Of a stretch of 64,000 bases of DNA, positions 15,580 through 62,793 are shown piece after piece (position 1 is the stretch's first letter; each line of letters begins with the position of its first letter). The DNA is from Hysterangium stoloniferum. Lineage: Eukaryota > Basidiomycota > Agaricomycetes > Hysterangiales > Hysterangiaceae. The position numbers were made by a program, and so were the translations under genes. The notes under the pieces were generated by a model. It made no database searches. It was not told the DNA's origin and worked only from the letters and a program-made list of their open reading frames with translations. The DNA lies in NCBI GenBank assembly GCA_015178975.1, contig WHVD01000071.1, forward strand, positions 1 through 64,000, given 5' to 3'.

Positions 15580-17183
15580 GACGGACCGGTAAATAGCGTG
15601 CTAGATCTATGATTTGTTGGTCGAAGACAATGCAGAGTCTTAGTAAGGAGTTAAACAAAGAGGAGGATGGTGGAGACAATGGTGAGAATGAGGACAATGC
15701 GCAGGAGATTGTTCAATTCTAGTAGTCTCCAATAGAACAATAACAGACGGGATCACGTGATCAGGACAATAGAAGCGCAGTGTGGCAGGTCCACAATTGG
15801 CATGTTTTTTCTTATAAAAAGTAGACAGAAGTATCTACATTTCTCTAATAACACTTTTACCTCTACTTCAAACAACAGGTTATGGGCCCCAGCTGTACAT
15901 AATTATCACCATCTACTATCACATCTAAAAAAAAAAACTACCTGTAACAATCACTTACAATGTCAAACACCAACACCATCTTCAAGATCGATCCGCTCAA
16001 TGGAGATAACTACACAGCATGGAGACGATACCTCATGGTGATCCTGGATGATCTAGAACTATGGGAGATAGCCAATGGCAGCGAGATGAAACCAATCTTG
16101 ACCAATGTCAATGATGCCCAGGAACAACAGGAAATCGCAGATTGGATCAAGAAAGACAAGAAAATGAGAAAATAGATTTTCTTATGCATATCTGATGAAC
16201 ATCAAGTTTATATTGACGATGGGATGACTGGACACAAAATTTGGACTAGACTACAAGACATATTTGAGTCTAGGGGGGCAGTTGGTGTTGTCAACTTAAG
16301 TTGAGAATTTTTCAGGACATTTGCGGAAGATGGCACTAATATGGCTAAGTGCACGAGGACAATCAATCACTAACTTGGACTTCACAAATACATTGCTTAC
16401 ATCACTTCCAGACTCTTGGTTGACATTCATCACAGTAGTTAATGCTGGTGCAGTAGCTGTGTCATTGAATATACTCATATCTAGGATCCTAGATGAGGAT
16501 CGGGCTTGACAGGCTGGAGCAGTGCAACAAACAGCACTCAAAGCCAGTGAAAGACCAGGAGCCACAAAAGGCACATGCCACAACTGTCGCAAGAAAGGAC
16601 ACTATCTTGCAGATTGTTGGGGAAAAGGGGGTGGCAAAGAAGGCCAGACACCCAAATGGTTCAAACCTAGAGACACGGACACAGCTGAACAACCAAATTT
16701 TGCATTCATGGCTAATATAGCATTAACATCGACCTCAATGTCTGACTGCTTGGCTGATACTGCAGCCTCAACACACATAGCACAGAACAAACAGGACTTC
16801 ATTACCTACTCTGAGGAATCTTCAGAAATCACAGGGATTACACCTGGCACATCACTAAAAACAAAAGGATGAGGATCAGTCACATTAGAGTTCAAGGTTG
16901 GCGAAAAAATCTATTCCATTATACTCAGAAACATCAAACATGCACCTGAAGCCCCAAACAACCTCATCAGTATAGGATGACTTACTGTAATGGACATTCG
17001 GCACTCTTCACTCCAGTTGGTGTACAATTTAAAGGGAAATCAGGAACTATCTTTGGCATGGGATGGAAAGTTGGTAGCATGTATCAGATGAGAGCGCATG
17101 TCAAGAAAACCAGTCAGAAGCAGGACTTTGTCACTGTAGTACATGGACGCACCTGGGACAAATGGCACCATATTCTTGGACAC

Positions 17184-17761
17184 TGTTACGACCCGTTCCC
17201 AGATGTTTCAATATCCGACTTCCGATCTCCGACTTCTGACTTCTGACCTCTGACTACGGAACATCATAGTTACCATATCATCTGCATTCTTCCCTTGTTC
17301 CGCATTTGGTAATTTGTCTGTTGACAAATATTCACTTGTTTGTCTATTGTATTCCTGTTTCAGAATATTGTATTCCTGTTTCAGAATATTGTATTCCTGT
17401 TTCAGAATATTGTGTTCCCAATACATCTTATTGTATTTCCATTTTAAGATTACTTCCATTTCCATCTTATTATGGTCTTAGTTTGTAGTACAATAACAAG
17501 AAGACTTATATTAGTTTCCGCGAATTTGTACTTTACCTTAGATCTGATATCGACTTAGTTTCTTATTCCTTCTCCCATCTTTCTGTACGCTCGATATTCG
17601 GAACTCTTCGGAACTCTGAATATCCGTATCTTCCATCGTAAGTCTCACCTCCAAAATTAAGGACATTGAGCGTTTGCGTAGAGGTGCAGCACATAAGCTG
17701 AAGCCGACGTCCTGACCCTATCTGATAGTTCCGGAATAAGTTCCCGACATGGCACTTAACA
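17184..17761 (+). mobile_element. Solo Ty3/gypsy LTR (element-1 family), 578 bp
   Basis: Begins TGTTACGACCCG and ends GCACTTAACA, matching the LTRs of the element at 26215-33893 in that element's sense direction. It is flanked by the 5-bp target duplication GACAC (17179-17183 and 17762-17766). It contains a short tandem array of about 18-19 bp (TATTGTATTCCTGTTTCAGA type, 17344-17410). It is a recombination remnant with no coding capacity. Confidence 0.93.
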
Positions 17762-17783
17762 GACACATCAATTACTGGACAAT

Positions 17784-18566
17784 TGTTAGGATACATACAG
17801 GGCAGGTCTCCGGAGAAACCTGCAGAATATCCGGTAGGACCTGGCTTCAGCTTATAGGCTGTGCCCTCACTAGATCGTGTTGTCCAATTTCAGATGGACG
17901 GACGGGAATCCTGGGGAGTCCAGGTGAGGGTTGTGGGTCGAGGGGTCGAGATTGGTGAGAGAGATAGATGCGCCAGAGCCTGTGGGCTCTGACTAGTGTA
18001 AGGGGTGTGATTCAAGTAGGGTTTAGAGTGGAAAATGTATTAGATTACTGGGGGGAATCTAAGCTGATTTTCTGACTGGATTGTATGTACAACATCTGCC
18101 AGTTTAAATAGACCGTGGAGTGAATGTCATACCAAATCCAGTAATAATGAAACAAAATGAGCAAAACATAAAACAGGAATAGTAAACACTGAATTGGTGT
18201 TAGGAACAGGACATAATGGAGCAGAGTCCAAATAGTGACAAATCATAAACCATGACAGGAAACAGAGTGGAGGTGGAGTCCGAATCATGACAGGTCATTT
18301 GACTAAAATGGGAATGGGGCTCTGTGAGAGGGAAGATGGGTTTACTGAGTGGGGTCCAGCGACTGACGTGCGGGACAAGGTTGGACATATACATAGATGG
18401 AGTCTGGTGGGATTTCCGGTGACTGAAACACAATGTAATTAAGTTGAACCTAGACGAGTCTGACATACGGAGTCCAGCGGGAATTCCAGTAAACTGATAA
18501 TGGGTGCATATAGGGTGCTGGTGCATATAAGTTAGTGTCTGGAGTCCGATGGGATTTCCGGTTGTA
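17784..18566 (-). mobile_element. Solo LTR, family 2, 783 bp
   Basis: Begins TGTTAGGATACATAC and ends at TTCCGGTTGTA, flanked by ACAAT on both sides (17779-17783 and 18567-18571). Other copies suggest the true end is TGTAACA, so three bases of an ACA repeat were probably lost at the junction. Related pieces lie at 21038-21354 and 53858-54571. It lies 22 bp from the other solo LTR. Confidence 0.85.
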
Positions 18567-18988
18567 ACAATGATCAAAACGCTCAAAAAGAATAACTTGG
18601 TTATAGGCTTGGAAATTGATGAATCACAAGTGCCAACTCAATGTACAGCTTGCATTCAAGGTAAACAACATGTTGAGCCATTTCCACAGCAGGCAACCCA
18701 AAATGCCGAGCAGATTAGTGACCTTGTTGTGTCAGATGTATGGGGGCCAGCACAGGTTGAAGGGCCAGCACGCGAAAAGTATTTCTACTCATACACTGAT
18801 GCTAAATTCAGGTATTCAGCAGTTTATTTTGGAAATACGAAGGATAAAGCATTAAAACACCCCAAAACCTTCAAAGCATTCCTCAAGACCCAAACTGGTA
18901 ACAAACTCAAACATTTTTGCTTGGATAATGGTGGAGAATATGTCAACAAACCATTCAAGGATTTCTGTGCTAAAAATGGCATTATCAT

Positions 18989-20317
18989 TGTAATGTATTC
19001 AGGGGATTCTCTTAGATAGCTCAATATATGCTATAGTGTCACAGAGCTTCAATAATAAAACAAGCAAAGGTCCAGTAATTTAAATACTGATAGATTAATG
19101 AGCTGCGCTATTAAGCTTAAACAACTCAAATCAATGCTTACTTTGATTATTGGAAGATTCAATAGAACTGTGTATGACTCTTTTAGCAAATAAAAGAACT
19201 ATTCCTTGAGAATAGGGGCTGGAAGCTGAATATATGCGCAGTAACTTGGCAGAGACTTGATATAAAGCTTCGGATTCTTGTGTGCTTATTTGTAACTATT
19301 AACAGTTATTTACCAAGGTGTTAAATAATTTATTACTAGAGAAAATAATTTGTATTGGATTATCTGAGTGCTTGTACTTGATTAATTCAATAAACTTAGG
19401 GCTGGGCCTTGAGTAATCTAGTATTGGCAGGGATTTCAGTAAGGATACTTAGATACTTATTAGGTTTATTATCTAATTAATAAGCCTAAAGGGTAGCTGT
19501 GAGGCTGGGGGGAACTTAGATGATTAGCTAAGTCCAAGAGTTGCTGACAAAGATTCAAGATGCTGCAAGTGTAGGTGCTTGCAGTGAGTGTATCAGACTA
19601 AGGCTATTATTGTCCTTAGGATGATGAGGTAAGCTTCTGTGCTGTACTGTAAAATATGAGTGTGATAGATTGGTTTTATTGGAAATTTGGCCCTCCTTAT
19701 ATACATTTTGATAACACAATGATTAGCTAACTATTTAGTTTATGAGGTCATTAGTGAGATCATAATGACCTCATATTCTACTCATTATTTATCCTTTGTT
19801 TAACATGTGATTCCCTTCTCTGAGACAAGGGTTCTAACCTCTTGCTTGAAGATGAAGGTTCAAGGCCGCGGTCCCGGGACGGAAGCAAACGATGAGTCGG
19901 TGGAACCTAATAATGACTCGGGTAGTCACGTTCGTGACTTGTGTGACTCGGGTAGTCACATTCGTGACTTGTGTGACTCGGGTAGTCACACTCGTGACCT
20001 TTGTGACATCCCGACACCGGAGGCTTATCTAATAGGTCACATGACTTCAAAAATGCGCAAACTAGGCTGCAGCAAGTGCCGAAAGGTAATAACTAAGTAA
20101 ATAAAATATAAATAATTAGTTAAAAATTATAATAAATTAACTAAGATATAATAGCATAATATGAGTTCATATATGCTATTATTATGCAAAGTTAAAAGGA
20201 ATAGAGCCTATATTTCACAATAAAAATATAATAAAAATACAATAAATTCAAGAAAATATTAATAAATTCAAAGAAAATTAAGAGAAAATTATGAGATAAA
20301 GCTGATACCTCACATGT
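18989..20317 (+). mobile_element. LTR family 3, near full copy
   Basis: Begins TGTAATGTATTCAGGGG and ends ACCTCACA, the same ends as the inverted copy at 24108-26084. AT-rich. It contains a 30-bp tandem array at about 19915-20005 (three units with GACTCGGGTAGTCAC). Its insertion truncates the copia integrase. No target duplication was found because the right side is rearranged. Confidence 0.8.
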
Positions 20318-21037
20318 CCTTAGGATGATGAGGTAAGCTTCTGTGCTGTACTGTAAAATATGTGTGTGATAGATGATTTTATTGGAAACTGAGCCTTCCT
20401 TATATACATTTTGATAACTCAATGATTAGCTAACTATTTAATTTATGAGGTCATTAGTTAGATCATAATGACCTCATATTCTACTCATTATTTACCCTTT
20501 ATTTATCATGTGATTCCCTTCTCTGAGACAAGGGTTCTAACCTCTTGCTTGAACATGAAGGTTCAAGGCTGCGGTCCCGGGACGGAAGCTAACGATGAGT
20601 CGGCAGAATCAATTAATGACTCAGGTAGTCACATCCGTGACCTGTGTGACATCCCGACATCAGACTGTGACTTGTGTGACATCCCGACACCAGACTGTGA
20701 CTTGTGTGACATCCCGACACCGGACTGTGACTTGTGTGACATCCGGACACTGAACGCTTATCTAATAAGTCACATGACTTCAAAAATGCGCAAACAAGGT
20801 GCCGAAAGGCAATAACTAAGTAAATAAAATATAAATAATTAGTTAAAAATTATAATAAATAAATTAAGTAATAATAGCACAATATGAGTCCATATATGCT
20901 ATTATTTATGTGAAGTCAAAAGGAATAAGGCCTATTTTTCACAATAAACATAGTAAAAAATACAATAAATTCGAAAGAATATTAAATAATCCACAGAAAA
21001 TTAAGAGAATATAATGAGATGATGCTGATACATCACA
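20318..21037 (+). repeat. Tandem partial copy of LTR family 3
   Basis: Repeats the 3' half of 18989-20317 (from TGTCCTTAGGATGATGAGG, first seen at 19613). It carries a different 30-bp array (about 20640-20755, four units of GTGACATCCCGACAC type) at the place where the first copy has its own array. It ends CATCACA at 21037. Confidence 0.85.
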
Positions 21038-21354
21038 GCATCTATCTCTCTCAACGATCTCAACTCATGACCCACGACCTCTAACTTACAACCCATGACC
21101 TCTGACTTACAACCCACGACCTCCGACTTACAACCCATGACCTCTGACTTACAATCCACGACCTCCAACTTACAACCCACGATCTCTGACTTACAACCTA
21201 TGACCCATGAACCCTGCCCGGACTCCCTGGGATTCCCATCTGTCTGTTTGAAATTGGACAACACGATCTAGTAAGGGCGCTGCCTATAAGGTGAAGCCAA
21301 GTCCTACTGGATATCCCATGGGTTTCTCTGGAGACCCGCCCTGTGTGTATATCC
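21038..21354 (+). mobile_element. Partial LTR family 2 with a 20-21-bp array
   Basis: Reverse complement of the first part of 17784-18566, ending ATATCCTAACA at 21354. An array of about seven units of 20-21 bp (CGACCTCTGACTTACAACCC type) lies at 21064-21206. The unit is far less regular in the other family members, so the array expanded in this copy. Confidence 0.75.
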
Positions 21355-24107: not shown

Positions 24108-26084
24108 TGTGAGGTATCAACCTCATCTCATAATATTCTCTTAATCTTTTGTGGATTATTTAATATTTCTTTCGAATTTATTGTATTTTTATTATATTTT
24201 TATTGTGAAATATAAGCCCTTATTCCTTTTAACCTCCCAAAATAATAGTAGATATGAGCTCATATAATCCTATTATATCTTATTTATTTTATTATAATTT
24301 TAACTAATTATTTATATTTTATTTACTTAGTTATTGCTTTTCGGCACTTGTCTGTGCATTTTTGGAGTCACGTGACCTATTAGATAAGACTCCGGGATAT
24401 CACACAAGTCACGAATGTGACTGTAACGACTTACTTGAGTCATAATTTGATTCCGCCGACTCATCAAATGCTTCTGTTCCGGGACCGCATGTTAAGAACT
24501 GGAAACTGACTAATGTCGGTGGCCGACAGGGACCGATCGGAAGGACTTGGCTTCAGCTTATGGGCTGCGCCCTCGCAAATATCCACAGGATGTCCTTATA
24601 TTTCGGGCGGGCGAAGACTAGTCCTAGTGAGTACCTTTCGGCGTGATACCGATCGGAATCGAAGGACAAGTCGAGCGTCAGGCCAAGGGGTCGGGGCCGG
24701 GAGTGGGCGAGCGCACGCGAAGGCGGATGGGGGAAGTCTTAGTATGAGACTGATACAGGTGTATGAGGGTATTCTGAGTCGATATTCTGATTGTCTAGTA
24801 ACTACAATTACAGCGGGTTCATATACAAGTAACAGGCGTCTGGAAAATACTAATGGGGAGAAGGGCGGAACACGGTATTAACAATAAGCTTGACTAGGAA
24901 CGGGAAGTTTATGATTAGTTCGGAGGCCGATGATAACCGAGAGCGGAATTACGATAAAAGGAAATGGTTCGAGGACTACAAATATAGATAGACATATGCG
25001 AAACATAAGATTGAACGGATCAACATAATAAAGGGGACGTATCAAAGTTTGACCAGACAATACGAGTTATTTGACGTAGGCGTAAATGGAGTTTGATCTT
25101 CGCGAAACATTCGTCAGCTTCGGGGCCGATGGTTTCCGAGGGGATGACTTGAAACGTTGACAAGTGGCGATAACCTCGGGGCCGATAGGGTTGCGACACG
25201 GTCGTAACACCGCAACCTTGAACCTTCATGTTCAAGCCAAAGGTTGGAACCCTTGTCTCAGAGAGGGGAATCACATGGTAAATAAAGGGTAAAATATAAG
25301 TAGAATATGAGGTCATTATGACCTAAATAATGACCTCATAAAATAAATAAATGGTTAAATATTTAGTTATTAAAATGTATATAAGGAGGGCCAAGTTTCC
25401 AATAAAATCAATCTATCACACACATATTTTACTGCACAGCTCAGAAGCCTATCTAATCATCCTAAGGACAATAATAACCTTAGTCTGATACACTAACTGC
25501 AAGCACCTACACTTGCAGAATCTTGAATCTTTGTCCGCAACTCTTGACCTTAGCTAATCATTTAAGTTCCCCCAGCCTCACAGCTACCCTTAGGCTTACT
25601 AAATACACAGTAAACCTAAAATAAGTATCCTTACTGAATTCCCTTCCAATACTAGATTATTCAAGGCCCAGCCTTAAGTTTATTGAATTAATCAAATACA
25701 AGCACTCAGATAATCCAATACAAATTATTTTATTTACTAATAAATTATTTAACACCTTGTTAAATAACTATTAATAGTTACAAATAATAATACAAGAATA
25801 CGAAGCTTTATATCAAGTCTCTGCTAAGTTACTATGTATATATTCAGCTTCTAGCCTCTATTCTCAAAGAATAGTTGTTTTATTTGCTAAAAGAGTCATA
25901 TATTGTTCTATTGAACCTTTAAATAATCAAAATAAGCATTGATTTGAGTTGTTTAAGCTTCATAGTGCAGCTCATTAATCTATCAGTATTTAAATTACTG
26001 GACCTTTCCTTATTTTATTGTTGAAGCTCTGTGACACTATAGCATATATTGAGCTATCTAAGAGAATCCCCTGAATACATTACA
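24108..26084 (-). mobile_element. Solo LTR family 3 with a nested solo LTR
   Basis: Begins TGTGAGGTATC and ends CATTACA, inverted relative to 18989-20317. The perfect target duplication CCTGG lies at 24103-24107 and 26085-26089. Without the nested LTR at 24490-25209 and its duplicated target, this copy is about 1.25 kb. No coding capacity. Confidence 0.92.
24490..25209 (-). mobile_element. Solo LTR family 4, 720 bp, nested
   Basis: Begins TGTTAAGAACTGG and ends GGTCGTAACA, flanked by the 5-bp duplication CCGCA (24485-24489 and 25210-25214). It is the inverted relative of the 3' LTR of the third gypsy element (62794-63538), so that lineage has been active in this locus too. Confidence 0.93.
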
Positions 26085-26214
26085 CCTGGACCTTTCCTAA
26101 TGCTTTGGTTACCTGAGCTCCTTCAAGGTTTTTCCTCACTGAAATCCACATACATAATCGTTCTGATGTACAACATAGTGATTATTTTATGAAGATAGGT
26201 TTGATGTGGCAAAG
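26085..26214. repeat. Short bridge of the A2 locus between two insertions
   Basis: Continues the duplicated X locus after the LTR and ends at the gypsy target site CAAAG (26210-26214). It retains a piece (ACCTTTCCTAATGCTTTGGT) that is also present in A3 (inverted, near 46465) but missing from A1. Confidence 0.8.
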
Positions 26215-26779
26215 TGTTAAGTGCCGTGTTGGGAACTTATTCCGGAACTATCGGAAAGTCGCCGGGAACTCAGGAACTGTCCGGTAGGGTCAGGATGTTG
26301 GCTTTAGCTTATGTGCTGCGCCTCTACGCAAACACTCGAAGTCCTTAATTTCAAAGGTGAGATTTACAATGGAAGATACGGATATTCAGAGTTCCGAAGA
26401 GTTCCGAATATCGAGCGTACAGAAAGACGGGAGGAGGAATACAAAACTAAGTCGATATCAGATCTAAAGTAAAGTACAAATTCGCGGAAACTAATATAAG
26501 TCTACTCGTTATTGTACTACAAACTAAGACCATAATAAGATGGAAACGGAAATGTTCTTAAAACGGAAATACAATAAGACATATTAGGGAGACAATATTC
26601 CGAAACGGGAATACAACAAACAAATGAGTGAATACTTGTCAACGGACAAATTACCAAATGCGGAACAAAGAGAGAATGCGGATGATACAGTAACTATGAT
26701 ATTCCGTAATCGGATATCGGAAGTCGGAAGTTGGAGATCGGAAGTTGGATATTGAAACATCCGGGAACGGGTCGTAACA
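26215..26779 (-). repeat. 3' LTR of gypsy element 1 (left side)
   Basis: 565 bp with TG...CA ends, paired with 33329-33893. In element sense this is the 3' LTR, since Gag-Pol runs leftward. Confidence 0.95.
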
Positions 26780-26907
26780 GTACCCCCCTGTTAGGCCGAA
26801 ATCCCATAGAGGCGATTAGGTACTGAGTGATTGAAACGACGGCTGATTGTTATGTGTCATGGAATTTACACAAATATGAAGGTGAGAGTATCGGCTGATG
26901 TGCTGAG

Positions 26908-26915
26908 TATAAAAA
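26908..26915 (+). promoter_or_regulatory. TATA box of the antisense gene
   Basis: TATAAAAA, 56 bases before ATG 26964 and about 130 bases inside the element from the LTR. It is kept in the second copy (55307-55314), and an equally spaced TATAAA is present in the third element (62670-62675, minus). This supports independent transcription of the extra gene. Confidence 0.65.
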
Positions 26916-26963: not shown

Positions 26964-28106
26964 ATGTCGATTCGTCAGCCATTATTCATCACTACCCCGG
27001 AAGACTCAGATACTGAATTATCCGTACTTCAAAAGATGTCGAAGGTCGCAGAACTTCAACAAAAATGACAGAGGGTGGAGGAGTTGAAGCGATGACAGGA
27101 GGACGAGGAAAGGGCGTTGATGCAGGAGTTGAAAGATGCGGAAGAGGCGGAAAAGCGGGAAATGGAGCGGGTGAAGGCGGAAAAGGAGAAGGAGTTGACG
27201 AGGTTACGGAAAGTAATAGAGGATCGGAGGTCGAAGGAAGAAGAAGAGAAGAAGCAACGAGAGGCTGAGGCAGCGGAAAAATGCAAGGAGGTAAGGGAAG
27301 GAAAGGTAAGTTCAATTCCATAAATTTCCATGATTCCAACCTATAACTGTTGCGTACAGCGAAAAGCCGTGGAGGTGGAAGTAGAGGGAGAAGCTGGGCC
27401 TTCGAGTCCTAAAGTAAGTGCATTTACAAAATATCGGTAATTGACTAATCTTCCGAAACAGAAACAAAAGGTCAAGGCTCCGGAACAGATGGAAATCGTC
27501 CATGAAACTCCATGCTATCGATGTTCCATACGGAACATGACGTGTGGGAAGCAGAAGGTAAAATGGGGCGGAACTTGCTATCCCTGCACAGTCCTCAAAC
27601 TTCCATGCACTCTTGCTGCAAAAAGGGTTCCAAAAGGTGAGAAGACTCCGAAAGTTAACGATGCGGGAAGTTCAGGAGCGGCCAAAGCTGCGGACACTGA
27701 GACGCCGAACATGGATACTACGGGCATTGAACTCCTAAAGGAAACTGTCGACGCGTTGGTTTTTATCGGGACGGAAGTCATGAAGATGTGGGACACAATG
27801 GATCACCATAATGATATCCAGGAGAAAGGTTTCTGTTCGTTGATCCGGAATTTCCGGAGGCAAAATGACTTCCTGGAGAAGATAATGGTTAGCATTGGTG
27901 TTATCGCAGTATCCGAGAGGTTTTCCGATAAGGCACAGGAAAAGCCTAATGATCCGTTGGCGGAAAGTGTTGAAAAAAGGTGGGCATCGGGAAATGGACC
28001 GGAGAAATCGGAGAGTGAGGATGAAGAGGTGCAGGATATGGTGGAAAGTGCGGAAATTGCTGAAGAGCCGGAAGGTGGATTTGGAGTATCAGAGACTTTA
28101 AAATAG
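26964..28106 (+). CDS. Antisense accessory gene of gypsy element 1: coiled coil plus Zn2Cys6-type cluster
   Basis: Proposed exons: 26964-27044, 27099-27305, 27360-27413 and 27462-28106, all GT-AG and phase 0, giving 328 aa. Exon 2 is a long Glu/Lys-rich coiled coil (EEAEKREMERVKAEKEKE). Exon 3 is short and acidic and ends GPSSPK. Exon 4 carries C-YR-C-x6-C-x10-C-YP-C-x6-C, exactly the Zn2Cys6 pattern, then a helical region and an acidic tail. In known proteins this cluster binds DNA as fungal transcription factors; here it lies mid-protein and lacks the usual basic loop, so DNA binding is inference. Two TGA codons (27066, 27093) lie in the proposed first intron (54 bp, weak donor GTCGCA); if that intron is not real, translation would start downstream. 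It lies opposite in strand to gag-pol. Confidence 0.75.
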
Positions 28107-28198: not shown

Positions 28199-31100
28199 TT
28201 AGAGTAATGATAAAGGTCCGGGTTTACTTGGATAAGCCATGTGGAAGTCGGTAACGATTTCTATAGCGTGTCCAAGTTCCGTGGCCAATATCCATGAAGT
28301 TTCCTCGTCGGTACCTTCATAGCCTGCCCATTTGACTAAATAGAGCAATTTACAAGTACGTCGGCGATTGTCGATTTTAGAATCCAAAATTTCGGAAACT
28401 TCAAATTCGGGTTCTCCGTCAATAATGACCGGAGGGGACGGGGGTTGAATACGTTCCAGGATTGAGTTAGGAACACAAGGTTCTAACATGGAAACGTGGA
28501 AAACGGGGTGGACTGCTCGCATACTGTCGGGAAGACGGAGAGTCCATGAAAGTGAACCAGCTTGTGCTATAATTTCAAAAGGTCCTAAGAATTTCTCAGC
28601 GAGTTTTTTAGAAGGTCGGGTAGTACGGAAGAATTGAGCTTTTACAAAAACCTGATCACCGATTTTAAAATTAGGAGGCAGGATCCTGTTTTTGTCCACG
28701 GAACGTTGATAATATTCCTGTGCAGAAGAAATAGCTTTCCGAAGTTCTTGATGTAATTCATCGAGGTCGGTAATAAATTCTTGAGCACGGACAGAAGCCA
28801 AATCTCGTTCGGAATGTACGGTGAGATTCAGATTAAAGCCTTTGTTGGCGAAAAAAGGAGATATGCCGGTAGTTGCATTCGGAGAGTTATTGTAGGCGAA
28901 TTCCGCGATCGGGAGAAGGGATTTCCAGTTGTCCTGTTGATAATTACAATAGATGTGGAGATATTGTTCCAATGTTTGATTTACGCGTTCCGTTTGTCCA
29001 TCACCTTCCGGATTAAAGCCTTTGTTGGTGAAAAAAGGAGATATGCCAGTAGTTGCATTCGGAGAGTTATTGTAGGCGAATTCCGCAATCGGGAGAAGGG
29101 ATTTCCAGTTGTCCTGTTGATAATTACAATAGATGCGGAGATATTGTTCCAATGTTTGATTTACACGTTCCATTTGTCCATCACCTTCCAGGTGATATCC
29201 TGAGGTGAAGTGTAGTTTCATATTGAGGGCTTTTCCAAGAGCCTGGAAGAAATGGGAGATGAACTTGGAGCCTCAATCGGAGGTTACGTGAGATGGAACT
29301 CCGTGTTTGGAAAATACGTGAATAATGAAAAGTTCCGCTAATTGTAAGGACGTGATTGTGTCATGAGTGGGTATGAAAATGCCTTGTTTCGAGAATCGAT
29401 CCACAACAACTAGAATGGATGTAAAGCCTTCGGAAGTCAGGAGTTGTTCGATAAAATCCATGGAAATTGAATTCCAGGGTTTTTCTGGTATCGGGAGTTG
29501 CTTGAGAAGGCAGTACGCCTTATGCCTCTGGGTTTTGGAGCGTAAGCAGGTGGTGCATGACTTACAGAACTGGGTTACGAAATCTCGGAGGTTGGGCCAA
29601 GTATATTCTCTACAGATTAAACCAAGAGTATTGTTAATGCCGTAATGTCCAGAGATTGGATGATTGTGTTTATACTGAAGTACACGGTGTCGGAGATTGT
29701 TGGAATCTGGAACGTAGATACGTCCATCGAGACGGATGAAACCTTGAGAGTCTTGTGACCATCGGGGTTGATCCGGATTGTCGGGAACTTCTAGGTGTGG
29801 CTTAAGAGCCGGATCGGAAGTGAGGGCGGAAAGGATATCTTGATGTAATTGTTCAATGTCCATAATCATGACGCTACGCATAATTGGATAGTAGAGGGAA
29901 GTTGCTCGGATAGATGCGGAAAGTTGTTGCATTGTAAAAACCGGTTTTAAGTTATGCGGATTAACAACTGCATAGTTACTTTCCCCCTCTTTAGGATAGA
30001 CGTCCCATCGTCGAGTCATGGCATCTGGTTTTCCACCAAGACGTCCAGGTCGGAAACGGATAATCATATTGAAAGCAGAGAGGAATTCGGACCAGCGGGC
30101 CTGCCGGCAGGTTAAAAGTTTAGTGGTAGAAAAATATTCGAGATTTTTGTAATCGGTAACGACATCAGTGGGAGTTGCGAAACCTTCGAGATAGTGGCGC
30201 CAATGTTTGAAAGCTTCAAAAATTGCCAAAAGTTCCTTATCATGAACGTCATAGTTGAGTTCAGACACTGAAAGTGTTTGAGAAAGGAATGCGACCAGAT
30301 GAATTTCACCGTCGAAATCTTGAATGGAAAGAATCATGGCAATTGCATAGTCGGAAGCATCGGTTTCCACAATAATCGGAACATCAGGTTTCCAATGGGA
30401 AAGGATCGGAGCAGAAGTGAAAGCATCTTTTAAAGTCTGGAAAGCGGAGCGGCATTTGTCGTCAAAGACCCATGGTTGAGTTTTACGGGTAAGACGAGTG
30501 AGCAGTACTGTAATATCCGAGTAGTTCCGAATAAAACGACGGTAAAAATTGGCGAAACCTAAAAATGACTGAATATCCTTGACTTTCCGTGGTTCAGGCC
30601 AATCACGGACAACTTGAACCTTGGCTTCATCCATCCGGAGACCATCAGGTCCGATAATGAAACCTAAGTATTCAATGGAATCCATGTCAAAGTAGCATTT
30701 TTTACCATTGGCGAAAAGACCATTTTTACGGAGTCGTCGGAAGACTTCACGCACTTGTTTGTCGTGGAGAGCGGGATCCTCAGAAAATACCAAAATGTCA
30801 TCCAAATAGACTATGACACATACATTAAGCATGTCGGAAAATATATCATTAACAAAACGTTGAAAAGCGGAAGGGGCGTTGGTAAGGCCGAACGGCATAA
30901 CCAACCATTCAAAGGATCCATAGCAAGTCCGAAAAGCAGTTTTCCATTCATCGCCCTCAGCAATTTGGACCAAATGATAGGCGTGTTTGAGGTCTATCTT
31001 GGTGTAAATCTGGGCTTTCCGTGGGGCGTTGAGTAGATCGGTAACGAGTGGAAGTGGGTACTTGTCTTTCCGTGTGATGGAATTTAATCCTCTGAAATCG

Positions 31101-32071
31101 ACACAGAGTCGAAGAGAACCATCCTTCTTTTGGACGAAAAGGACAGGTGCTCCATACGAAGACTTTGAGGGACGGATAAAACCTATTGACAGATGTTCAT
31201 CCAGGAACTCCCAAATAGACGAGAGTTCCGATTGGGATAATGGGTAAATAGGTCCTAACGGAGGGTTTGAACCGGGCTCAATATCAATTTTTAAGTCGTA
31301 AGGCCTATGTGGTGCAAGCCTGTCAGCTTTTTGCTTACTGAAAATATCCGCGAAATCATGGTATTTTTCGGGGACTCCTTCCAGGTCGGCTTTTAGCTCG
31401 GATAATTCTGGAGTTGCAAAACGTCCAGATGCTTCATCAACTTTTAAGCTGATCGAAAAACACTGCGAACCATCCAGTTTACTCACCCTAACAAATGCCG
31501 AAGCATTGATGAGAGAGATTTTTGGAGGCACGGAGGTTTCGGTAGAAGCCAGAGGTGCCGTAGATGCCAAAAAGGCGTTGGCCGGAAGAGACGCTGCAGG
31601 AGGAACCGAAGTGTCGGGAATCCGGAAATTAATACTGCCCAATACCCAGTCAATCAACGGATTATATCGGGTGAGCCAGTTGTATCCAAGAACTACCGAA
31701 CAGCTAGAGTCCAACTGTGTTACAAAAAAAGTAACCATCTGGGATGTTCCACAAGGGAACCGGATAGACATGTCGCAGGCTTGGGTAATTGCCGTATTGC
31801 TAGTGCCATCAAACAGATGCAAGGAAATTGCGGGAACAGAATGGAGTTTCAGATTATGTTTCGTGGCAAAGGTGGTATCTACAAAACAGTGTGTGGAGCC
31901 GGAATCTATCAGAGCTCGGAACACTAAATTTCCAAGAAAGTCAGAAACGAGTTTTACAAATAATGAGTCGGGATTAGAGAGAGTGGACGCGTTGAGACGG
32001 ATAACCTCGGAAACACGGAGAGAGTCAACGCAACCCTCTTTCCATGCAGATTTCGGAGGGTTGCTTACTCT
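28199..32071 (-). pseudogene. Ty3/gypsy Pol polyprotein with one TGA and an internal duplication
   Basis: In order: aspartic protease (ALIDSGSTH), reverse transcriptase (YLDD motif in VIVYLDDILVF), RNase H (VETDASDYA), integrase with an HHCC zinc region (HPISGH to CKSCTTC) and catalytic Asp residues in MDFIEQ and TSD, and a C-terminal chromodomain (LYLVKWAGY, TSWI). A TGA at 29275-29273 replaces the Arg after TSD, the expected product of CGA decay. The catalytic Glu region is present twice because of an in-frame 180-bp duplication (28831-29190). All other parts are open, so the element died recently or depended on readthrough. Confidence 0.93.
28831..29190 (-). repeat. 180-bp in-frame tandem duplication in integrase
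   Basis: Units 28831-29010 and 29011-29190, each 60 codons, including the EGDGQTERVNQTLEQ stretch with the catalytic Glu and the following helices. The units differ at about seven sites, mostly C/T or G/A at CpG, so the duplication is not very recent. Confidence 0.92.
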
Positions 32072-32080
32072 TTTTTCGAC
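32060..32080 (-). promoter_or_regulatory. Candidate -1 frameshift site between gag and pol
   Basis: Gag ends TCG AAA AAA GAG TAA. A slip of one base back on the six-A run moves translation into the pol frame, which is open from there through protease. Pol lies in exactly that frame. No pseudoknot was assessed. Confidence 0.5.
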
Positions 32081-33294
32081 TCCGTGGCGGGTTTTTCCTT
32101 GGACGTTGTAGTCGTAGTGGAAGTTGCCGCGCGGGCCTTGGAAGAGTTAGATTTAACAGTACAGTCAGAAACCTTGTGTCCGCCTTTCCCGCAGAAAAGG
32201 CAGAGGTCGTTGTCCATATGTTGTTGTTTCTCCTTCGGGGTGAGTTTACCGTCGGTACCCAACAAATGGGAAATGTCGGGTTTGTCGGAAGTTGACTGTT
32301 TTTCCTTGTTGGATTTCTTGTCTTTCTTCCGGTCGGAGTTAGATTTACCAGTATTAGTGCCAGAGTTGCCGGTGTTATTGCCTGAGTTGTTGCCGGAAGA
32401 CTTGCTAGTCGACGCCTTGGTGTTCTGAGAACGTTCCGTCGGGTTCTCTCGAGAAACCTCGGCTTTTCGTTCCCAATAACGGGCATCGGATGTTTGAGCT
32501 TTCATCCGCATGAGTTGGAGAGTTTTCGGCTTTCCATCTTTGCAGATTTTGTCTTTAAGGCGTGACGGAAGTCCCATATAGAAATGGTGTCTGAGGGCGG
32601 AATCATCCCATCCACATCGTGCGGCGAGGGTATTGAACTTGACGAGATAATCGGAAACTTGTTGATTGTCCTTCATCTTGAGCGTCATTAATTCATTTTC
32701 CGCTTCACCAGATTGATCGTAAGGTCCGAAATTGGTTTCCAGTTCTTCCACAAAAGCGTCCCAGTCGTCGAGCCATATGGGTGTCTCGTCAGATCTTCCA
32801 GATAGTCCGGGTTCGAACCAATCCTGAGCAGTATCCTTGAGATATGAGAGCGCAAAATTGACTTTTCGACTATCGGATTTGAATGCATTGGGTCGATCGC
32901 GGAAGCTGAAACGGCATTGGAGAAGGAAATTCTTCAATTTTTTCGGATCCTTGCCGGTAAATGGTTCGGGTTCTTTGACTCCGGTGCGGGATGATTCTTT
33001 ACTATCCTCAGCGGATTTCAAGTAGTCAGTGAATTTCACAATGGAGTTGATAAACAACATTTCAGTCAGTTCGTCGGGAGATTTCTTTTTCGATGTCTCC
33101 GGCTGATCTTCTGCCTCGTTGTCGGAAGTGTGGGGATCATTGGGATCCTTCGTTACCTCGGTAACCTCCTCAGTAACTTCTTCGACTGAAGCTGATGTTG
33201 TCAGCTGAATTGGGGTTTCGGGTTGAGTGGTGTAAAGTTGCAACGGGGATTGAAGTTGGGATGGTCCTTCAGCAGCTTTGCGTTTGGGACCCAT
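32065..33294 (-). CDS. Ty3/gypsy Gag, 409 aa
   Basis: Intact from ATG 33294 to TAA. Order: acidic N-terminal third, retrotransposon Gag domain (EPFTGKDPKKLKNFLLQC through YLKDTAQDWFEPGL), Ser/Asn-rich linker, and a CX2CX4HX4C zinc knuckle near residues 365-378 (CLFCGKGGHKVSDC) for RNA binding. It forms the virus-like particle in known relatives. It begins 35 bp from the 5' LTR. The ORF is undamaged although Pol carries a stop. Confidence 0.93.
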   Translation of the reverse strand: MGPKRKAAEGPSQLQSPLQLYTTQPETPIQLTTSASVEEVTEEVTEVTKDPNDPHTSDNEAEDQPETSKKKSPDELTEMLFINSIVKFTDYLKSAEDSKESSRTGVKEPEPFTGKDPKKLKNFLLQCRFSFRDRPNAFKSDSRKVNFALSYLKDTAQDWFEPGLSGRSDETPIWLDDWDAFVEELETNFGPYDQSGEAENELMTLKMKDNQQVSDYLVKFNTLAARCGWDDSALRHHFYMGLPSRLKDKICKDGKPKTLQLMRMKAQTSDARYWERKAEVSRENPTERSQNTKASTSKSSGNNSGNNTGNSGTNTGKSNSDRKKDKKSNKEKQSTSDKPDISHLLGTDGKLTPKEKQQHMDNDLCLFCGKGGHKVSDCTVKSNSSKARAATSTTTTTSKEKPATESKKE

Positions 33295-33328
33295 GATGAG
33301 CGAGTCGCAGAGTTGAGATCTGATATAC

Positions 33329-33893
33329 TGTTAAGTGCCGTGTCGGGAACTTATTCCGGAACTATCAGAAAGTTGCCAGGAACTCAGGAACTGTCCGGTA
33401 GGGTCAGGACGTTGGCTTCAGCTTATGTGCTGCACCTCTACGCAAACACTCGAAGTCCTTAATTTCAAAGGTGAGATTTACGATGGAAGATACGGATATT
33501 CACAGTTCCGAAGAGTTCCGAATATCGAGCGTACAGAAAGATGGGAGGAGGAATAAGAAACTAAGTCGATATCAGATCTAAAGTAAAGTACAAATTCGCG
33601 GAAACTAATATAAGTCTACTCGTTATTGTACTACAAACTAAGACCATAATAAGACGGAAACGGAAATGTTCTTAAAACGGAAATACAATAAGACATATTA
33701 GGGAGACAATATTCCGAAACGGGAATACAACAAACAAACGAGTGAATACTTGTCAACGGACAAATTACCAAATGCGGAACAAAGAGAGAATGCGGATGAT
33801 ACGGTAACTATGATGTTCCGTAATCGGATATCGGAAGTCGGAAGTCGGAGATCGGAAGTTGGATATTGAAACATCCGGGAATGGGTCGTAACA
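33329..33893 (-). repeat. 5' LTR of gypsy element 1 (right side)
   Basis: 565 bp, the same length as its partner. In the first 130 bases I count about seven differences from the partner, nearly all C/T or G/A at CpG positions. This points to age and methylation-type decay rather than random drift. Confidence 0.95.
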
Positions 33894-34085
33894 CAAGGGT
33901 GTATGAAGAAACCGCATTGCTTGCCATTATCCTGACTAGACTCTCATTGAGTTGGGTTTCTTCTTATTACAAATTTCAATACAATTAAACAGGAAGCATG
34001 GAAATCTCACCGGATATAATTAGCAGTGTGAATGAACCTCAATAGTGAGTATAAATATCACCCACGATGTCCCTCACAAAATATA
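33894..34085. repeat. A2 locus resumes after the gypsy element
   Basis: Begins with the target copy CAAGG and continues as 9719-9920 of the first locus, including the TATAAATA box region (about 34040-34050). Homology fades near 34085. Confidence 0.85.
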
Positions 34086-53857: not shown

Positions 53858-54571
53858 CCAACAACTGTTATGACTGGAATTCCCGCTGGACTCCAGGCAC
53901 TAACTTATATGCACCCACACCCTATACACACCAATTGTCAGTTTACTGGAAGTCCTGCCAGACTCTGTACGTCAGACTTGTCTACGTTTGACTTCATTAC
54001 ATTGTGTTTCAGTCACTGGAATACCCACTGGACTCCCTCCCGACCTCATCCCACCCATCAGTCACTGGACCCCACTTGGAAAACCCGTCTTCCCTCTAAC
54101 AGAGCCCCGTTCCCATTTTAGTCAAATGACCTGTCACGATTTAAACTCCACTCCTGCTCCATTTCCCATTATGGTTTATGATTTGTCACGATTCAGACTC
54201 TGCTCCTGTCCTGTTCCTAACACCAAATTTGGTGTTTACTATTCTCATTTCATGTTTTGCTAGTTTTGTTTCATCATTACTGGATTTGGTATGTCATTCA
54301 TTCCATGGTCTATTTAGTCTGGCAGATGTTGTACATACATACAATCCAGTCAGAAAATCGGCTTAGATTCCCCCCAGTAATCTAATACATTTTCCACTCT
54401 AAACTCCTACTTGAATTACACTGCTCATGCTGGTCAGAGCCCATGGGCTCCGGCGCATCTATTTCGACTCCCGACCTCTTGACCCATGACCTCCGACCTA
54501 CGATCCCTCGACCCATGAACTCCCCCCAGACCCCCCGGGATTCCTGTCCACCTGTCTGAAATTGGACAACA
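53858..54571 (+). mobile_element. LTR family 2 remnant, CpG-depleted
   Basis: Inverted relative of 17784-18566: begins TGTTATGACTGG and runs to GAAATTGGACAACA, lacking the last 130 bases. Many CG sites of the other copies are TG or CA here. Confidence 0.75.
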
Positions 54572-55362
54572 TTGCTGTTTTTGAATCATTGCCCCTTTGA
54601 AACTATTTCTCCTTTTGTCACTGTTAAATATTGTGTTAGGAACTTTTTCTGGAACTATTGGAAAATGACTGGGAACTCAAAAACTTCCAAATAGGATTAG
54701 GACATCAGCTTCAGCTTATGTGCTGTGTCTCTACATAAATGCTCAGAAGTCCTTAACAGAGATGGGATTTATGCCAGAGGATATGGATATTCAGAGTTCT
54801 GAAGAGTTTGAATATTGAGCATGCAGAGAGAAGGAAGGAATAAGAAACTAAGTCAATATAGATCTAATGTAAAGTACAGATTCACAGAAACTAATATAAG
54901 TTCTCACATTATTGTACTAAAAACTAAGATCACAATAAGACAGACTAAGGAAAGTATTCTGAAACAGGAATATAATAAGGAAATCAGTGAATACTTGTGA
55001 ATCAACAAGTTACCAAATGTGGAACAAGGATGAGATCCAGAAGTATGGGAACTATAAATGTTTTGTAGTTGGAAGTTGGGATCAGATTTGAGATGGGAAG
55101 TTGGATCAGAGACTTGAGGCAGAGGTCAGATTTTTTGGATAATATCAGATATTGAAGTATCTGGGAATGGGTTGTAACAGTACCCCCCTGTTAGGCTGAA
55201 GTCCTATAGAGACAATTAGGTACTAAGGATTGAACTGTCAGTTATGCATTATGTGTCATGAAATTACACAAATTTGGAAGTGGAGAGTTTTGGCTGCTAA
55301 TCTGAGTATAAAAACTTCCAAATATTCAAAATAATAATTTTCTTTCTTTAACCATGACTTGC

Positions 55363-56527
55363 ATATCAATTCAGTATCCTTTGTTTGCCACCACTCTGGA
55401 AGATTCAAATGCCAAAGTTGCCATACTCACCAAACTGTCAAAAGTCAAAGAACTTCAATGTAAATGACAGAGGATGGAGGAGTTGAGGTGACAACAAGAG
55501 GAGGAGGAGAGAGAGTTGATGCAAGAATTGAAGGAGGTGAAAGAAGTGGAAAAACAGGAGTTGGAGTGGGTGAAGGTGGAGAAAGAAGTGGAGGAAAAGA
55601 GGAAGGAATGGGTGTGGAAGGTGGTGGAATATCAGAGGTTGTGGGAAGAGGTGGAGAAGAAATGGCAGGATGCTGAGGTAGAATAACAGCAGCTGAAATA
55701 GAAGCAGGACAGAAATGTAAGTGAGCTGGAAATGTTCTGTGTATCCCTGATAATGGTAGATAACAGCAGGAAGCTGATGAGGTGGATAAGGAGGAAGAGG
55801 CTGGGCCTTCAAGTCCAAAGGTAAATAACTTGGTAAAAGTTCTGGAATTTGACTATTTTCTGAAATAGAAACAAAAGACCAGGGCTCCGGAATGCATGGA
55901 GATTGCCTATGAAATTCCATGTCAGCATTGTGCAAGCTGGGGCATTATTTGTTGGAGACAGAAGGTAAAATGGGGTGGAACCTGTTTCCCTTCAGTGGTA
56001 AACAAAATCCCATACAGTGGACTCCAAAAAATGAAAAGGCTCAAAGGTGGAAAAAATAGAAAAAGTGGCAATTGCAGAAAATTCGGGAATGACAAAGTCT
56101 GTGGAAACTGAAGTGCCAAACATGGACAATGATACTAGCATTGGACTCCTCAGAAATACCATTAATGCAATGGTGTTTATTGGCATGGAGTTAATAAAGG
56201 TTCAAGAGATCTTAGAGTGTCATAATGTTGTCCAAGAGGAGGGTTTCTGGATGTTATGTAAATTGAAACTTCTGGAAACAAAATGAGTTTCTGGAAAGGG
56301 TAATCATCAGCATCAGTATTAATGTGGTTTCTGAAAGGTATGTTGATAAAGAAAGGGATGAGTCGAATGATATGTTGGTGGATATTGTTGAGAAAAGCTG
56401 GGTGTTGGGAGAAAAACTGGAAAGTGAAGATGGGAAAGTGCAGGAAATGGTTGAGAGTGCAAAAATTGCAAATGACATGGGAGTTGGAGTGGAGGAAGGA
56501 TTTGGAGTACTGGAAACACTACATTGA
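55363..56527 (+). pseudogene. Antisense accessory gene of gypsy element 2 (dead)
   Basis: Same order as 26964-28106: TATA box 55307-55314, start now ATA, Glu-rich coiled coil, then the cluster exon (about 55871-56520). Two of the six cluster Cys are lost (CFPS and KIPY where element 1 has CYPC and KLPC) and the frame is broken near 56030 and 56280. The C-terminal acidic part is still readable (56324-56527). Confidence 0.8.
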
Positions 56528-56662
56528 TTGTATCCTTATTTTTAACTTGCAAAATGATTATTATTATTATTATTTTGATGTGACTTAATTAAAGATTGTG
56601 AAAGAGTGTTGGATCAGAAGTGTTGGAAAACAGACAGGGAAAAAATGCAGGAAATCAGAGTG

Positions 56663-58009
56663 ACAATAAAGGTCCAGATTTACTAGGATAAGCAAGTTCT
56701 GTAATCAATATCCACGAAGTTTCTTCATTGGCACCTTTGTAGCGTGCCCATTTGACTAAATAAAGGATTTTCCAAGTATGTCAGCAATTGTTGATTTTAG
56801 AATCCAAAATCTCGGAAACTTTGAATTCAGGTTCTCCATCAATGATGACCAGAGGAGGTGGAGGTTGTTTGTATTCTGGGATGTTGCTAGGAACACAAAG
56901 TTCTAATATGGCAACATGGAAAATGGGATGAACTCCTTGCATACTTTCAGGAAGTCAGATCCACAGAACATTGATAATGTTCCTGAGTGGAAGTCAAATT
57001 CTATTTGGGATATACTGCAAGATTAGGATTATATCCTTTATTGGTGAAGAAGGGAGAGATGCCAGTAGTTGAATCCAGAGAGTTATTGTAAGCAAATTCT
57101 GTGAGTGGAAGAAGAGATTTCCAGTTGTCCTGTTGGTAGTTCAGTAAATATAGAGGTATTGTTCCAGGGTTTGGTTGACATGTTCCATTTGTCTGTCACC
57201 TTCCAGATGATATCCCAAAGTGAAGTGTAATTTCATATCAAGAGTTTTTCCAAGAGCCTTGAAAAAATAGGAAACAAACTTGGAACCTCAATTGGAAGTT
57301 ACATGAAATGGAACACCATGTTTGGAAAATACATGAATGATAAAAGGTTCCACTAATTGCAAGAATGTGATTGTATCATGAGTGGGTATGAAAATTCCTT
57401 GTTTTGAGAATCAGTCTACTGTACAACTAGAATGGATGTAAAGCCTTCAGAAGTTGGGAGTTGTTCAATAAAATCCATGGAAATTGAGTTCCAGGGTTTT
57501 TCCAGTATTGGGAGTTGCTTGAAAAGGCTGTACAGCATATGGCTCTGGGATTTAGAATGTAAGCAAGTGGTGCATGACTTACAGAACTGGATTATGAAAT
57601 CTCAGAGGTTCGGCCAAGTATATTCTTTTCAGATTAAACTGAGAGAGTTGTTAATGCTATAATATCTGGAAATTGGATGATCATGTTTTTACTAAAGTAC
57701 ACAGAGTCAGAGATTGTCAGAGTCTGGAACATAAATATGTTCAGCAAGATAGATGAAACCTTGAGAGTCTTGGGACCACTGGGGTTGATTGGGATCATTG
57801 GGAACTTCTATGTGTGACTTGAGAGCCAGATTGGAAGTAAGTGTAGAAAGGATATATTGATGTAATTGCTCAATGTCCATAATCAGAATGCTATGCATAA
57901 TTTGATGGTAGAGAGAAGTCACTTGGATAGATGCAGAAAGTTGCAGTGTTGTAAACACTGGTTTCATGTTGTGCAGATTAACAATGGCACATGCCTTTTT
58001 AAAATACAC
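56663..58009 (-). pseudogene. Pol C-terminal half of gypsy element 2
   Basis: Minus-strand remnants of the integrase core and chromodomain, with stops and indels. The best open part is 57707-58009 (before the integrase zinc region). A segment between the chromodomain and the integrase core is deleted near 56960-57020. Confidence 0.8.
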
Positions 58010-59151
58010 ACAAATGACATAGTTACATAAGATTATTTGGGTTAACCTAGATCATTTGGGTTAAACAAGATTATTTGGGTTATGACTTAATCTTTGGGTT
58101 ATGATGTATTCTGTTGTATAGAAGCAAACTTTCAAATATATTTCATATAATTTAAATTTAGTTGGTTTAGAGAGTTAACCAGAACTATCTGGGGTACCAA
58201 TCCCCATTGTGCAATTTATTCCAAAAGAATAATCTAAGATGATTGTTTGACTAAATTTTGTCAGATACATATAGGATAAATATTAATATTTTTGCATTCT
58301 TCAGAGTGATACCTAATCAACTGAATTTGATTAAATATTAATTTTACAACAAACGATATAAATATATATACTTTAGTGGATAAATAATTTTTAAAGTTTT
58401 GGGTTATCCTCCTATACATAATTATGTAGTTTGGCATGAAGTATTCTGGGACCCACAAATGTCATCATGTTGAGAATATACCTGAACAGCCAAAGCTGAA
58501 CCTTACACTATGAGGCACAGAGGTCAAACAGAAATTATATTTATCTTCCTCATGATTCTTATGAACTTCGAGAACTGATTTCAACATGATGAAATCAACT
58601 TTGAGAACTCTGGGATTCCTCCCTGTCTGCCTCAGGGATTCACAAAATTCAGGAATGGCAAGGGTGAATGAGGAATTTACATTGTCTACAATAAACCTGA
58701 AATAAACCCAACTAGACTATCACGTGACCTTGGTTTTTTTTTTAATACATTTATATACCGCATCGTATAACTAAGATACATAGTGGTTCCATAGCATCAT
58801 ATAGATCATAGCTACTATAGTATCTATGGGAGAATGAAGAGGAAGCAGGCCAGATGCATCAGAGTGAGTGGTGGTTGGCAGAATGGTCGAATAAAGAGAG
58901 ATGATTGCACTGAACTTGCCCAGTGAACAGCACATGCCATTTGGGCCGAAGCCCCAGGAAGAACCCGATATCCTGCTAACAGGCATCGATGACAGCTGCA
59001 GGCACACCAAAGTCTTTGCATTGCTAGTGCATAAGTGAATGCTGGAGTTGGAGGTGGGTAGGAAGAAAAGACCGCTGCCAGGCTGCAGTCATGGTTTAGG
59101 AGGTGCCAGTGACAGTCTGCAGGTGACACTGGTGTGCAGCTGAAGGCTGCC

Positions 59152-61426: not shown

Positions 61427-61472
61427 GTCTTTCATGTGGTATCCGACCTTTTTCCGACTATGCTTTATGAAA

Positions 61473-62618: not shown

Positions 62619-62669
62619 GGTGGTTAAGGGAAAAGAAGTGAAAATTCAAGCGCCAAGACCCCTGGAATG

Positions 62670-62675
62670 TTTATA
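62670..62675 (-). promoter_or_regulatory. TATA box of the antisense gene, element 3
   Basis: TATAAA on the minus strand with its first base 57 nt before ATG 62618, matching the 56-nt spacing in element 1. Confidence 0.5.
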
Positions 62676-62793
62676 TGTAAATTTTTTGCCAAGTCACATG
62701 ATGTTTTGACACACCCAACCATACCCGACGAGTTTTTACATACAGGATCTAGATTTTCGGCCTCCTTGGGATTTTGGCCAAATGGGGAGATAC

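Follow-up and report, generated by a model that had tools for sequence, protein, structure and literature searches.

Evidence for a Spliced Antisense Gene under Selection, with a Zn2Cys6-like Cluster, in Ty3/gypsy Elements of Hysterangium stoloniferum

Introduction

Several plant gypsy elements carry an antisense open reading frame termed aORF-3R, represented by gene23 of Grande, by RIRE2 and by TRP28 of Retand (PMC11963269, PMC7264820). The frame is located between pol and the 3′ LTR, is present in most copies, has an upstream promoter of its own in the case of Grande, and has been proposed to play a DNA-binding or nuclear role, features which all recall the locus described below (PMC11963269, PMC7264820). 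The roles of antisense accessory genes in LTR retrotransposons are stated in the same texts as not known (PMC7264820, PMC11963269). In fungi, an extra antisense gene, brtn, is described for Boty of Botrytis cinerea, likewise a gypsy element with a chromodomain (Zhao et al. 2011, as cited in PMC7264820, PMC8365987 and PMC4227169).

Two more distant systems are instructive with regard to function. The VANC proteins recognise short motifs that occur densely in their own VANDAL families, and they bring about a loss of DNA methylation; they are element-encoded, their specificity changes fast, and the short family motif accumulates in the element's own DNA (PMC5735166). HBZ of HTLV-1, a regulator acting in the nucleus, is encoded antisense near the 3′ end of an element that likewise replicates by reverse transcription; it is also named in PMC11963269.

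Here, we describe a gene on the plus strand inside a minus-strand Ty3/gypsy element of Hysterangium stoloniferum, for which the presence of splicing, of selection and of a Zn2Cys6-like cluster appears well supported by comparison of copies. It differs from the plant frames in that Retand is a non-chromovirus, whereas the H. stoloniferum element is a chromovirus whose antisense gene encodes a cluster of six cysteines, has two introns conserved among copies and goes together with DNA words specific to each family; the TRP28 domain was absent among the Pfam matches of exon 3 (up to E 1) and of the alignment members and the related elements L081 and L082 (up to E 10). Boty differs in its ascomycete host, the comparison with brtn being one of descriptions. 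The VANC system belongs to a plant DNA transposon, with motifs mainly in non-coding tandem repeats, and its anti-silencing activity has only an inferred counterpart in H. stoloniferum (PMC5735166).

A first-pass annotation of this DNA had held that no fungal LTR element was described with an antisense Zn2Cys6 gene. That has to be narrowed, as an antisense gene as such is on record with brtn of Boty; for the zinc cluster, the statement agrees with our literature search, which mostly covered papers outside subscription journals, with most matches judged by their listing, and which found neither a retrotransposon-encoded Zn2Cys6-like antisense gene nor family words in such elements. Since brtn is already in print, what is new would be the zinc cluster, the conservation of the introns and the pairing of words and protein.

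The Host Element

The window, i.e., the whole stretch of 64,000 nucleotides that was analysed, comes from a 111-Mb genome assembly of H. stoloniferum (Hysterangiales) comprising 554 contigs. The species, a truffle-like basidiomycete, is termed ectomycorrhizal in PMC7550596.

A Ty3/gypsy chromovirus with matches to gag, protease, reverse transcriptase (RT), RNase H, integrase and chromodomain occupies the minus strand of the window from about 26203 to about 33894. In its pol, as recognised by Pfam, RT is followed by RNase H and integrase, and the C-terminus of integrase bears a chromodomain, in agreement with membership of the chromoviruses. The gag ORF (32065-33330, minus strand) matches Retrotrans_gag at 3e-15, together with a zinc-knuckle match under the cut-off. 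The main pol ORF (29273-32146, minus strand) covers protease, RT, RNase H and the start of integrase, and the 3′ part of pol (28199-29272, minus strand) covers the C-terminal part of integrase, an SH3-like domain and the chromodomain, all assigned by Pfam. Matches in pol include PF00078 (2.2e-36), PF17917, PF17921 (4.5e-16) and PF24626 (3.5e-20), and PF00385 reaches 26.9 bits against a cut-off of 25.1. This pol is damaged; an in-frame stop separates the two ORFs, which share a frame, and because the stop cuts the rve core, the latter is matched only at E 0.1. The integrase also carries a 180-base tandem duplication (28831-29190).

The element is bounded by a 3′ LTR (26203-26780) and a 5′ LTR (33317-33894), both on the minus strand and with approximate ends, which are 96.8% identical across 565 bases. 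Within the 3′ LTR, 14 CGGAA/TTCCG words are found.

Anatomy of the Antisense Gene

The antisense gene occupies positions 26964-28106 of the plus strand, in the interval between the pol stop and the 3′ LTR. Its placement inside a minus-strand gypsy element, as given in the first-pass annotation, is borne out by the ORF itself and by the Pfam-supported element around it. The TATA box assigned to the gene, AGTATAAA (26906-26913, plus strand), lies about 50 bases upstream of the ATG and is identical in all 50 aligned copies.

Three exons were found where four had been claimed. Exon 1 (26964-27305) encodes a stretch rich in E, K, R and A, exon 2 (27360-27413; RKA...PSSPK) is short, with RKA and SP kept across families, and exon 3 (27462-28106) encodes the Zn2Cys6-like cluster, a linker, a helix-like stretch recognised by eye and an acidic C-terminus, before ending in a TAG stop. 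Both introns on this strand are of phase 0 and of the form GTAAGT..ACAG, namely intron 1 (27306-27359, 54 bases) and intron 2 (27414-27461), and the GT-AG borders proposed for them are present in 50/50 copies in either case. The six-cysteine cluster, CX2CX6CX10CX2CX6C, spans positions 27513-27608 on the plus strand.

In the window copy, exon 1 is interrupted by two TGA codons in frame, and this copy is, for that reason, unable to make the full protein. By eye, these two sites are CGN in 17/30 and 26/30 aligned copies and TGA in 4/30 and 2/30, respectively.

Conservation and Selection among Copies

When the genome was searched with exon 3, 921 candidates emerged; the 150 that were scored all matched. 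By eye, 93 of these matches are without a stop and 57 have one, a figure to which the query adds some stops since it began 18 bases inside intron 2. For alignment, 50 copies were used, consisting of the 30 best matches and 20 hand-picked from lower down, 19 of the latter from rows without a listed stop. In this sample, the ATG is present in 49/50 copies and the TAG stop in 48/50; exon 3 is free of stops in 45/50, and the codons of the six cysteines are kept in 50, 49, 50, 50, 50 and 48 copies. Intron lengths vary by single bases (51-55 for intron 1 and 47-49 for intron 2), and length changes in exons are mostly in threes. A simple test for the three-exon structure is passed by 24/50 copies, but in at least one of these, L002, part of exon 1 is out of frame.

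For the three codon positions, variability in exon 1 is 0.100/0.118/0.204; exon 2 has 0.036/0.020/0.160, and exon 3 has 0.086/0.075/0.208. Counted in the same way, intron 2 shows 0.248/0.253/0.198, and the values of intron 1 are uneven at 0.168/0.083/0.205. The dN/dS check suggested in the first-pass annotation yielded a median of 0.222 for the antisense coding sequence (CDS) over the 50 copies, well below 1, with 0.21 for exon 1, 0.10 for exon 2 (the lowest of the three), 0.22 for exon 3 and 0.152 for the cluster. For comparison, the C-terminal stretch of pol has a median of 0.229, and its pooled pN/pS is 0.446 versus 0.273 for the antisense CDS. The other frames of exon 3 give dN/dS values of 1.13 to 1.63, except for the mirror frame (reverse frame 2). 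That frame, considered as a gene in its own right at 0.265, was rejected, as it has degenerate positions in common with the real frame and contains stops in 50/50 copies.

As judged from this comparison, the spliced antisense gene is conserved and under selection at the protein level. A chance ORF or an artefact of annotation, to which the two stops in exon 1 of the window copy would be no obstacle, has a negligible probability given the comparative tests and the fact that none of the five alternative frames of exon 3 is open in any of the 50 copies.

Linkage to the Element Lineage

In 75 of 80 loci, all of which were fetched via the gene, the C-terminal stretch of pol adjoins the gene on the opposite strand; of the remaining five, one has it on the same strand and four are without it within the fetched flank. 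Conversely, an antisense-gene match is seen by eye about 2-3 kb away and on the opposite strand at 8 of the 10 best RT matches among the matches listed.

Three other gypsy elements (L081, L082 and L083) were chosen by RT match. The conserved ORF which the first-pass annotation had anticipated in related elements was found in two of the three, L081 and L082, with the same three-exon plan and corresponding phase-0 introns. The first junction reads GK|RKA in the window family, L081 and L082 alike, and the three also share the six cysteines, one glycine and a lysine four residues past the fifth cysteine. The pol proteins of these three gene-bearing families are about 71-84% identical to one another, and the antisense proteins of L081 and L082 are about 31% identical to that of the window family over their full length (24 and 18% in exon 3). 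In L083, whose pol is about 40% identical, a 3.6-kb piece contains no cluster-bearing ORF of at least 90 residues. On the strength of this linkage, the antisense gene is best described as a feature of the element lineage.

A search for the L081 family gave 1376 candidates, 150 of which were scored; 19 of the 150, L081 included, are 100% identical, which is why L081 is regarded as young. By eye, about 30 of the 150 scored copies of this family start less than 6 kb from the first base of their contig, probably owing to assembly breaks at repeats and possibly to a subtelomeric location.

The window itself contains a second antisense gene, of the L082 type, at 61480-62645 on the minus strand, with a stop in the cluster region (by eye). 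It belongs to a plus-strand element at about 59144-63553 with pol at about 59144-61420, and its exon 1 includes a tandem repeat coding for WKEKEEE-like units (by eye). Further repeats in the window comprise an old, strongly decayed window-type element (54620-58009), LTRs or LTR fragments resembling those of the three families, some of them adjacent (17182-17762, 17856-18569, 24490-25059 and 53864-54571), and several tandem and interspersed repeats with spacings of 21, 30 and about 723 bases (20002-21230).

The two related elements also permit a comparison of rates. Between L081 and L082, 635/758 residues of pol (RT to integrase) are identical versus 85/264 aligned residues of the antisense proteins. 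The pS is 0.71, near saturation, for both genes, and pN is 0.099 in pol versus 0.494 in the antisense gene. By these figures, the antisense protein diverges five times faster than pol at equal synonymous divergence, with its cysteines kept, and the equality of pS suggests that the gene has probably travelled together with pol.

For a host gene captured once and carried as a passenger, nothing was found to speak in favour; the protein searches retrieved fragments from H. stoloniferum itself and, beyond these, a single metagenome protein without significance. With the gene present in three element families, with introns in common, synonymous divergence as deep as that of pol and purifying selection, such an origin is a very remote prospect. 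Somewhat less remote, and still very improbable, is the idea that the antisense RNA is what matters, through double-stranded RNA or interference with the sense transcript, the ORF being incidental. Convergent transcripts would indeed overlap, and an RNA role of this type is proposed for plant antisense ORFs (PMC7264820). However, the dN/dS of 0.22, the variability at third positions, the exon length changes mostly in threes and the retention of the cysteines across families at about 31% identity together show selection on the protein, and a role as regulatory RNA only was rejected on account of the codon pattern.

The Encoded Protein

Fungal Zn2Cys6 clusters have the family spacing CX2CX6CX5-12CX2CX6-8C. 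The spacing of the antisense-gene cluster falls within it; CX2CX6CX10CX2CX6C, as read in the first-pass annotation, is kept in 42/45 stop-free copies of exon 3, and the six cysteines are invariant in all rows of a six-row cross-family alignment. The assignment as Zn2Cys6-type holds for the spacing and fails for the profile and pattern tests. The gathering score of Pfam Zn_clus (PF00172, 21 bits) was not reached, with 10/25 alignment members matching at E up to 10 (best 0.32); L081 scored 10.1 bits, L082 gave no match, and the basic-residue pattern of PROSITE PS00463 fits 0/45 stop-free copies. As Pfam Zn_clus is hinted at far below its cut-off, we refer to the cluster as Zn2Cys6-like and not as a member of PF00172.

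Upstream of the cluster, the protein has a long charged stretch. After residue 30, the share of E, K, R, A and Q amounts to 0.79-0.85 in L027, L050, L081 and L082 and to 0.57 in L002, in which exon 1 is frame-shifted inside. The coiled coil previously assigned here is better described as an E/K/R/A/Q-rich stretch, a label that reflects composition. At the other end, the last 50 residues include 15-17 acidic ones in three window-family copies and L081. The protein thus resembles Gal4-type Zn2Cys6 factors (PF00172) in its six-cysteine spacing, its possible CGG recognition and its acidic tail, and differs from them in remaining below the Pfam cut-off, in the long charged stretch before the cluster and in being encoded by a retrotransposon.

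Protein searches with exon 3 alone found no homologues. With a 25-row alignment, one protein was retrieved, the hypothetical protein BU17DRAFT_62310 (P0001) of H. stoloniferum, and the six-row alignment added one further protein of this species and P0003, a metagenome protein of 325 aa. The latter has a similar six-cysteine spacing and charged stretches, at a non-significant E of 4.4, and is a hint that relatives may exist outside H. stoloniferum. Two scans of viral contigs found no relative. Sequence searches of solved structures gave no match for exon 3 of the window copy and four weak matches for L081 (E 0.068 to 1.1), talin included.

Family-Specific Words

Zn2Cys6 factors contact CGG triplets in DNA. 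In the LTRs of the three gene-bearing families, CGG- or CCG-containing 5-mers are in marked excess over dinucleotide shuffles (n=1000): CGGAA in the window family (14 vs 1.8 expected), CGGAC in L081 (10 vs 3.0) and CCGAC in L082 (10 vs 2.1), each count being reached in 0/1000 shuffles. As the words were picked from the LTRs, these LTR figures are selected; the tests in the antisense CDS and in pol, made with synonymous-codon shuffles (n=1000), are independent. The antisense CDS of each family is enriched in its own word, with CGGAA at 16 vs 7.3 (0/1000), CGGAC at 7 vs 3.6 (30/1000) and CCGAC at 8 vs 2.7 (3/1000). The same holds in pol for CGGAA (21 vs 11.7, 0/1000) and CGGAC (16 vs 7.3, 0/1000), and there is no enrichment of CCGAC in the pol of L082 (8 vs 6.6, 337/1000) or of CGGAA in the gag of the window element (10 vs 6.8, 112/1000). 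The comparison comprises one element each for L081 and L082 and one control gypsy family without the gene (L083), with no young LTRs among the controls; in L083, no excess of the three words was seen. The copia element L086 was discarded as a control, as its DNA is decayed (CpG observed/expected 0.04), and a count of 10 vs 3.3 in the C-terminal piece of pol was set aside since the tandem duplication inflates it.

For words belonging to another family, counts mostly stay near expectation, the exceptions above z 2 being CGGAA in the L082 LTR and in L081 pol (z 2.2 each) and CCGAC in the window gag (z 2.1). Enrichment of the own word, the VANC-like property, therefore extends to LTR and antisense CDS in 3/3 families and to pol in 2/3, set against three off-family excesses at z 2.1-2.2. 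In pol, the bare triplet CGG is in excess in each of the three gene-bearing families, with z values of 3.1, 5.2 and 3.4, and depleted in L083 (z -4.0); it has no clear excess in the three antisense CDS (z 0.2, 1.7 and 1.3) or in the L082 LTR (z 1.5). Among 71 clean window blocks of equal length, the top 5-mer contains CGG or CCG in two, and CGGAA reaches at most three occurrences; an earlier control of 95 blocks, 11 of them with such a top word, had included other elements of the same kind, and the 71 are those left after their removal. In the L081 LTR region, CGGAC ranks as the second or third 5-mer, not the first, and the top 6-mer, CCGGAC, contains it. By comparison between families, the word enrichment can be regarded as family-specific.

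Scans of all k-mers against synonymous shuffles (n=200) placed CGGAA third among the 5-mers of the window pol (z 3.0), and yielded TCGCA in L082 pol (1/200) and one 8-mer, CTCAAAAA, in the control L083 (0/200). Scans of this kind, which take one word at a time, are noisy in coding DNA; weight is therefore placed on the LTR-derived words. In L081 pol (1-2274), CCACGG/CACGGA is over-represented (CCACGG 10 vs 1.7, 0/200), a second word that the LTR word does not explain.

The observed/expected ratio of CpG in the three LTRs is 1.37-1.45. One old window-family LTR in the window has no CGG or CCG left, which points to CpG deamination of dead copies, and in comparisons with older LTRs, the word positions were kept worse than the rest in 4/6 cases, the direction expected from CpG decay and one that lends the words no support. 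Over the 50 copies, retention of the CpGs in LTR words is 0.68-0.82 at 13/13 sites, and 5/21 other CpGs are under 0.5, a difference that weakly favours the family words.

These CpG data also bear on a rather doubtful alternative, according to which a nuclear or VLP protein acts via protein or RNA contacts, for which integrase, chromatin and the pre-integration complex are possible partners. The cluster would then be structural, and the CGG words would have another cause, such as host-factor sites or CpG context. The failure of the cluster in Pfam and in the PROSITE pattern would fit such a protein, and the high CpG ratio of the LTRs, taken with the loss of CpG words from old copies, suggests CpG-linked mutation or selection on these elements in general. 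Against this, dinucleotide shuffles hold the CpG content, synonymous shuffles hold protein and codon usage, and the words in excess vary by family in step with the antisense protein.

Proposed Function

Our preferred reading, to which we assign a probability of roughly one half, is that an antisense promoter of the family drives a gene for a small nuclear, DNA-binding Zn2Cys6-like protein, which would read the family's CGG word in the LTRs and the element body and control transcription of its own family, activation or shielding being likelier than repression. The antisense promoter beside the 3′ LTR would give rise to a spliced mRNA, and the protein would enter the nucleus, bind the family words in LTRs and element body, and activate or shield the copies of its family. 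The genomic (sense) RNA, made from the other strand, would keep the introns, so that these would be copied intact by reverse transcription; they would survive because the gene is antisense and the introns remain unspliced in that RNA. The existence of the promoter and what becomes of the introns follow from the anatomy of the element; binding and effect are suggested by the CGG contacts of Zn2Cys6 proteins together with the VANC precedent. Expression, nuclear entry, DNA binding and the direction of the effect are what we infer from sequence. Regulation of the element's own promoter, a role considered in the first-pass annotation, is indirectly suggested by the family words in LTRs and coding sequence.

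The same evidence for DNA binding would serve a repressor that limits the copy number of its own family or of rivals, and self-limitation would be useful to elements as numerous as these (921 and 1376 candidates, 150 scored in either case). The acidic C-terminus (15-17 of the last 50 residues), however, resembles an activation region, and the fast change of the protein, together with the words spread along the element, is more in keeping with recognition of targets to counter silencing; neither point is decisive, and we consider a repressor unlikely.

The reading as an activator or shield has a wider form, which we advance more tentatively, namely a clade of fungal chromoviruses with self-recognition. 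In these, the fast-changing specificity of the zinc cluster would move in step with a CGG word that fills LTRs and synonymous sites, and each family would activate or shield its own copies only. In its logic, the protein would, in our opinion, best be compared with VANC or HBZ, as a DNA-binding regulator that recognises its own element. HBZ is a bZIP protein, and its likeness to the present gene implies no homology.

Implications

Genes of this kind can go unnoticed, as illustrated by the two fragments filed as hypothetical proteins of H. stoloniferum. With a DNA-binding-like cluster and candidate target words at hand, the function of antisense accessory genes becomes directly testable. Lying antisense, the gene illustrates a way for introns to persist in a gene that a retroelement carries, and the family words within coding sequence, if true, would mean that a selfish element marks its own genome.
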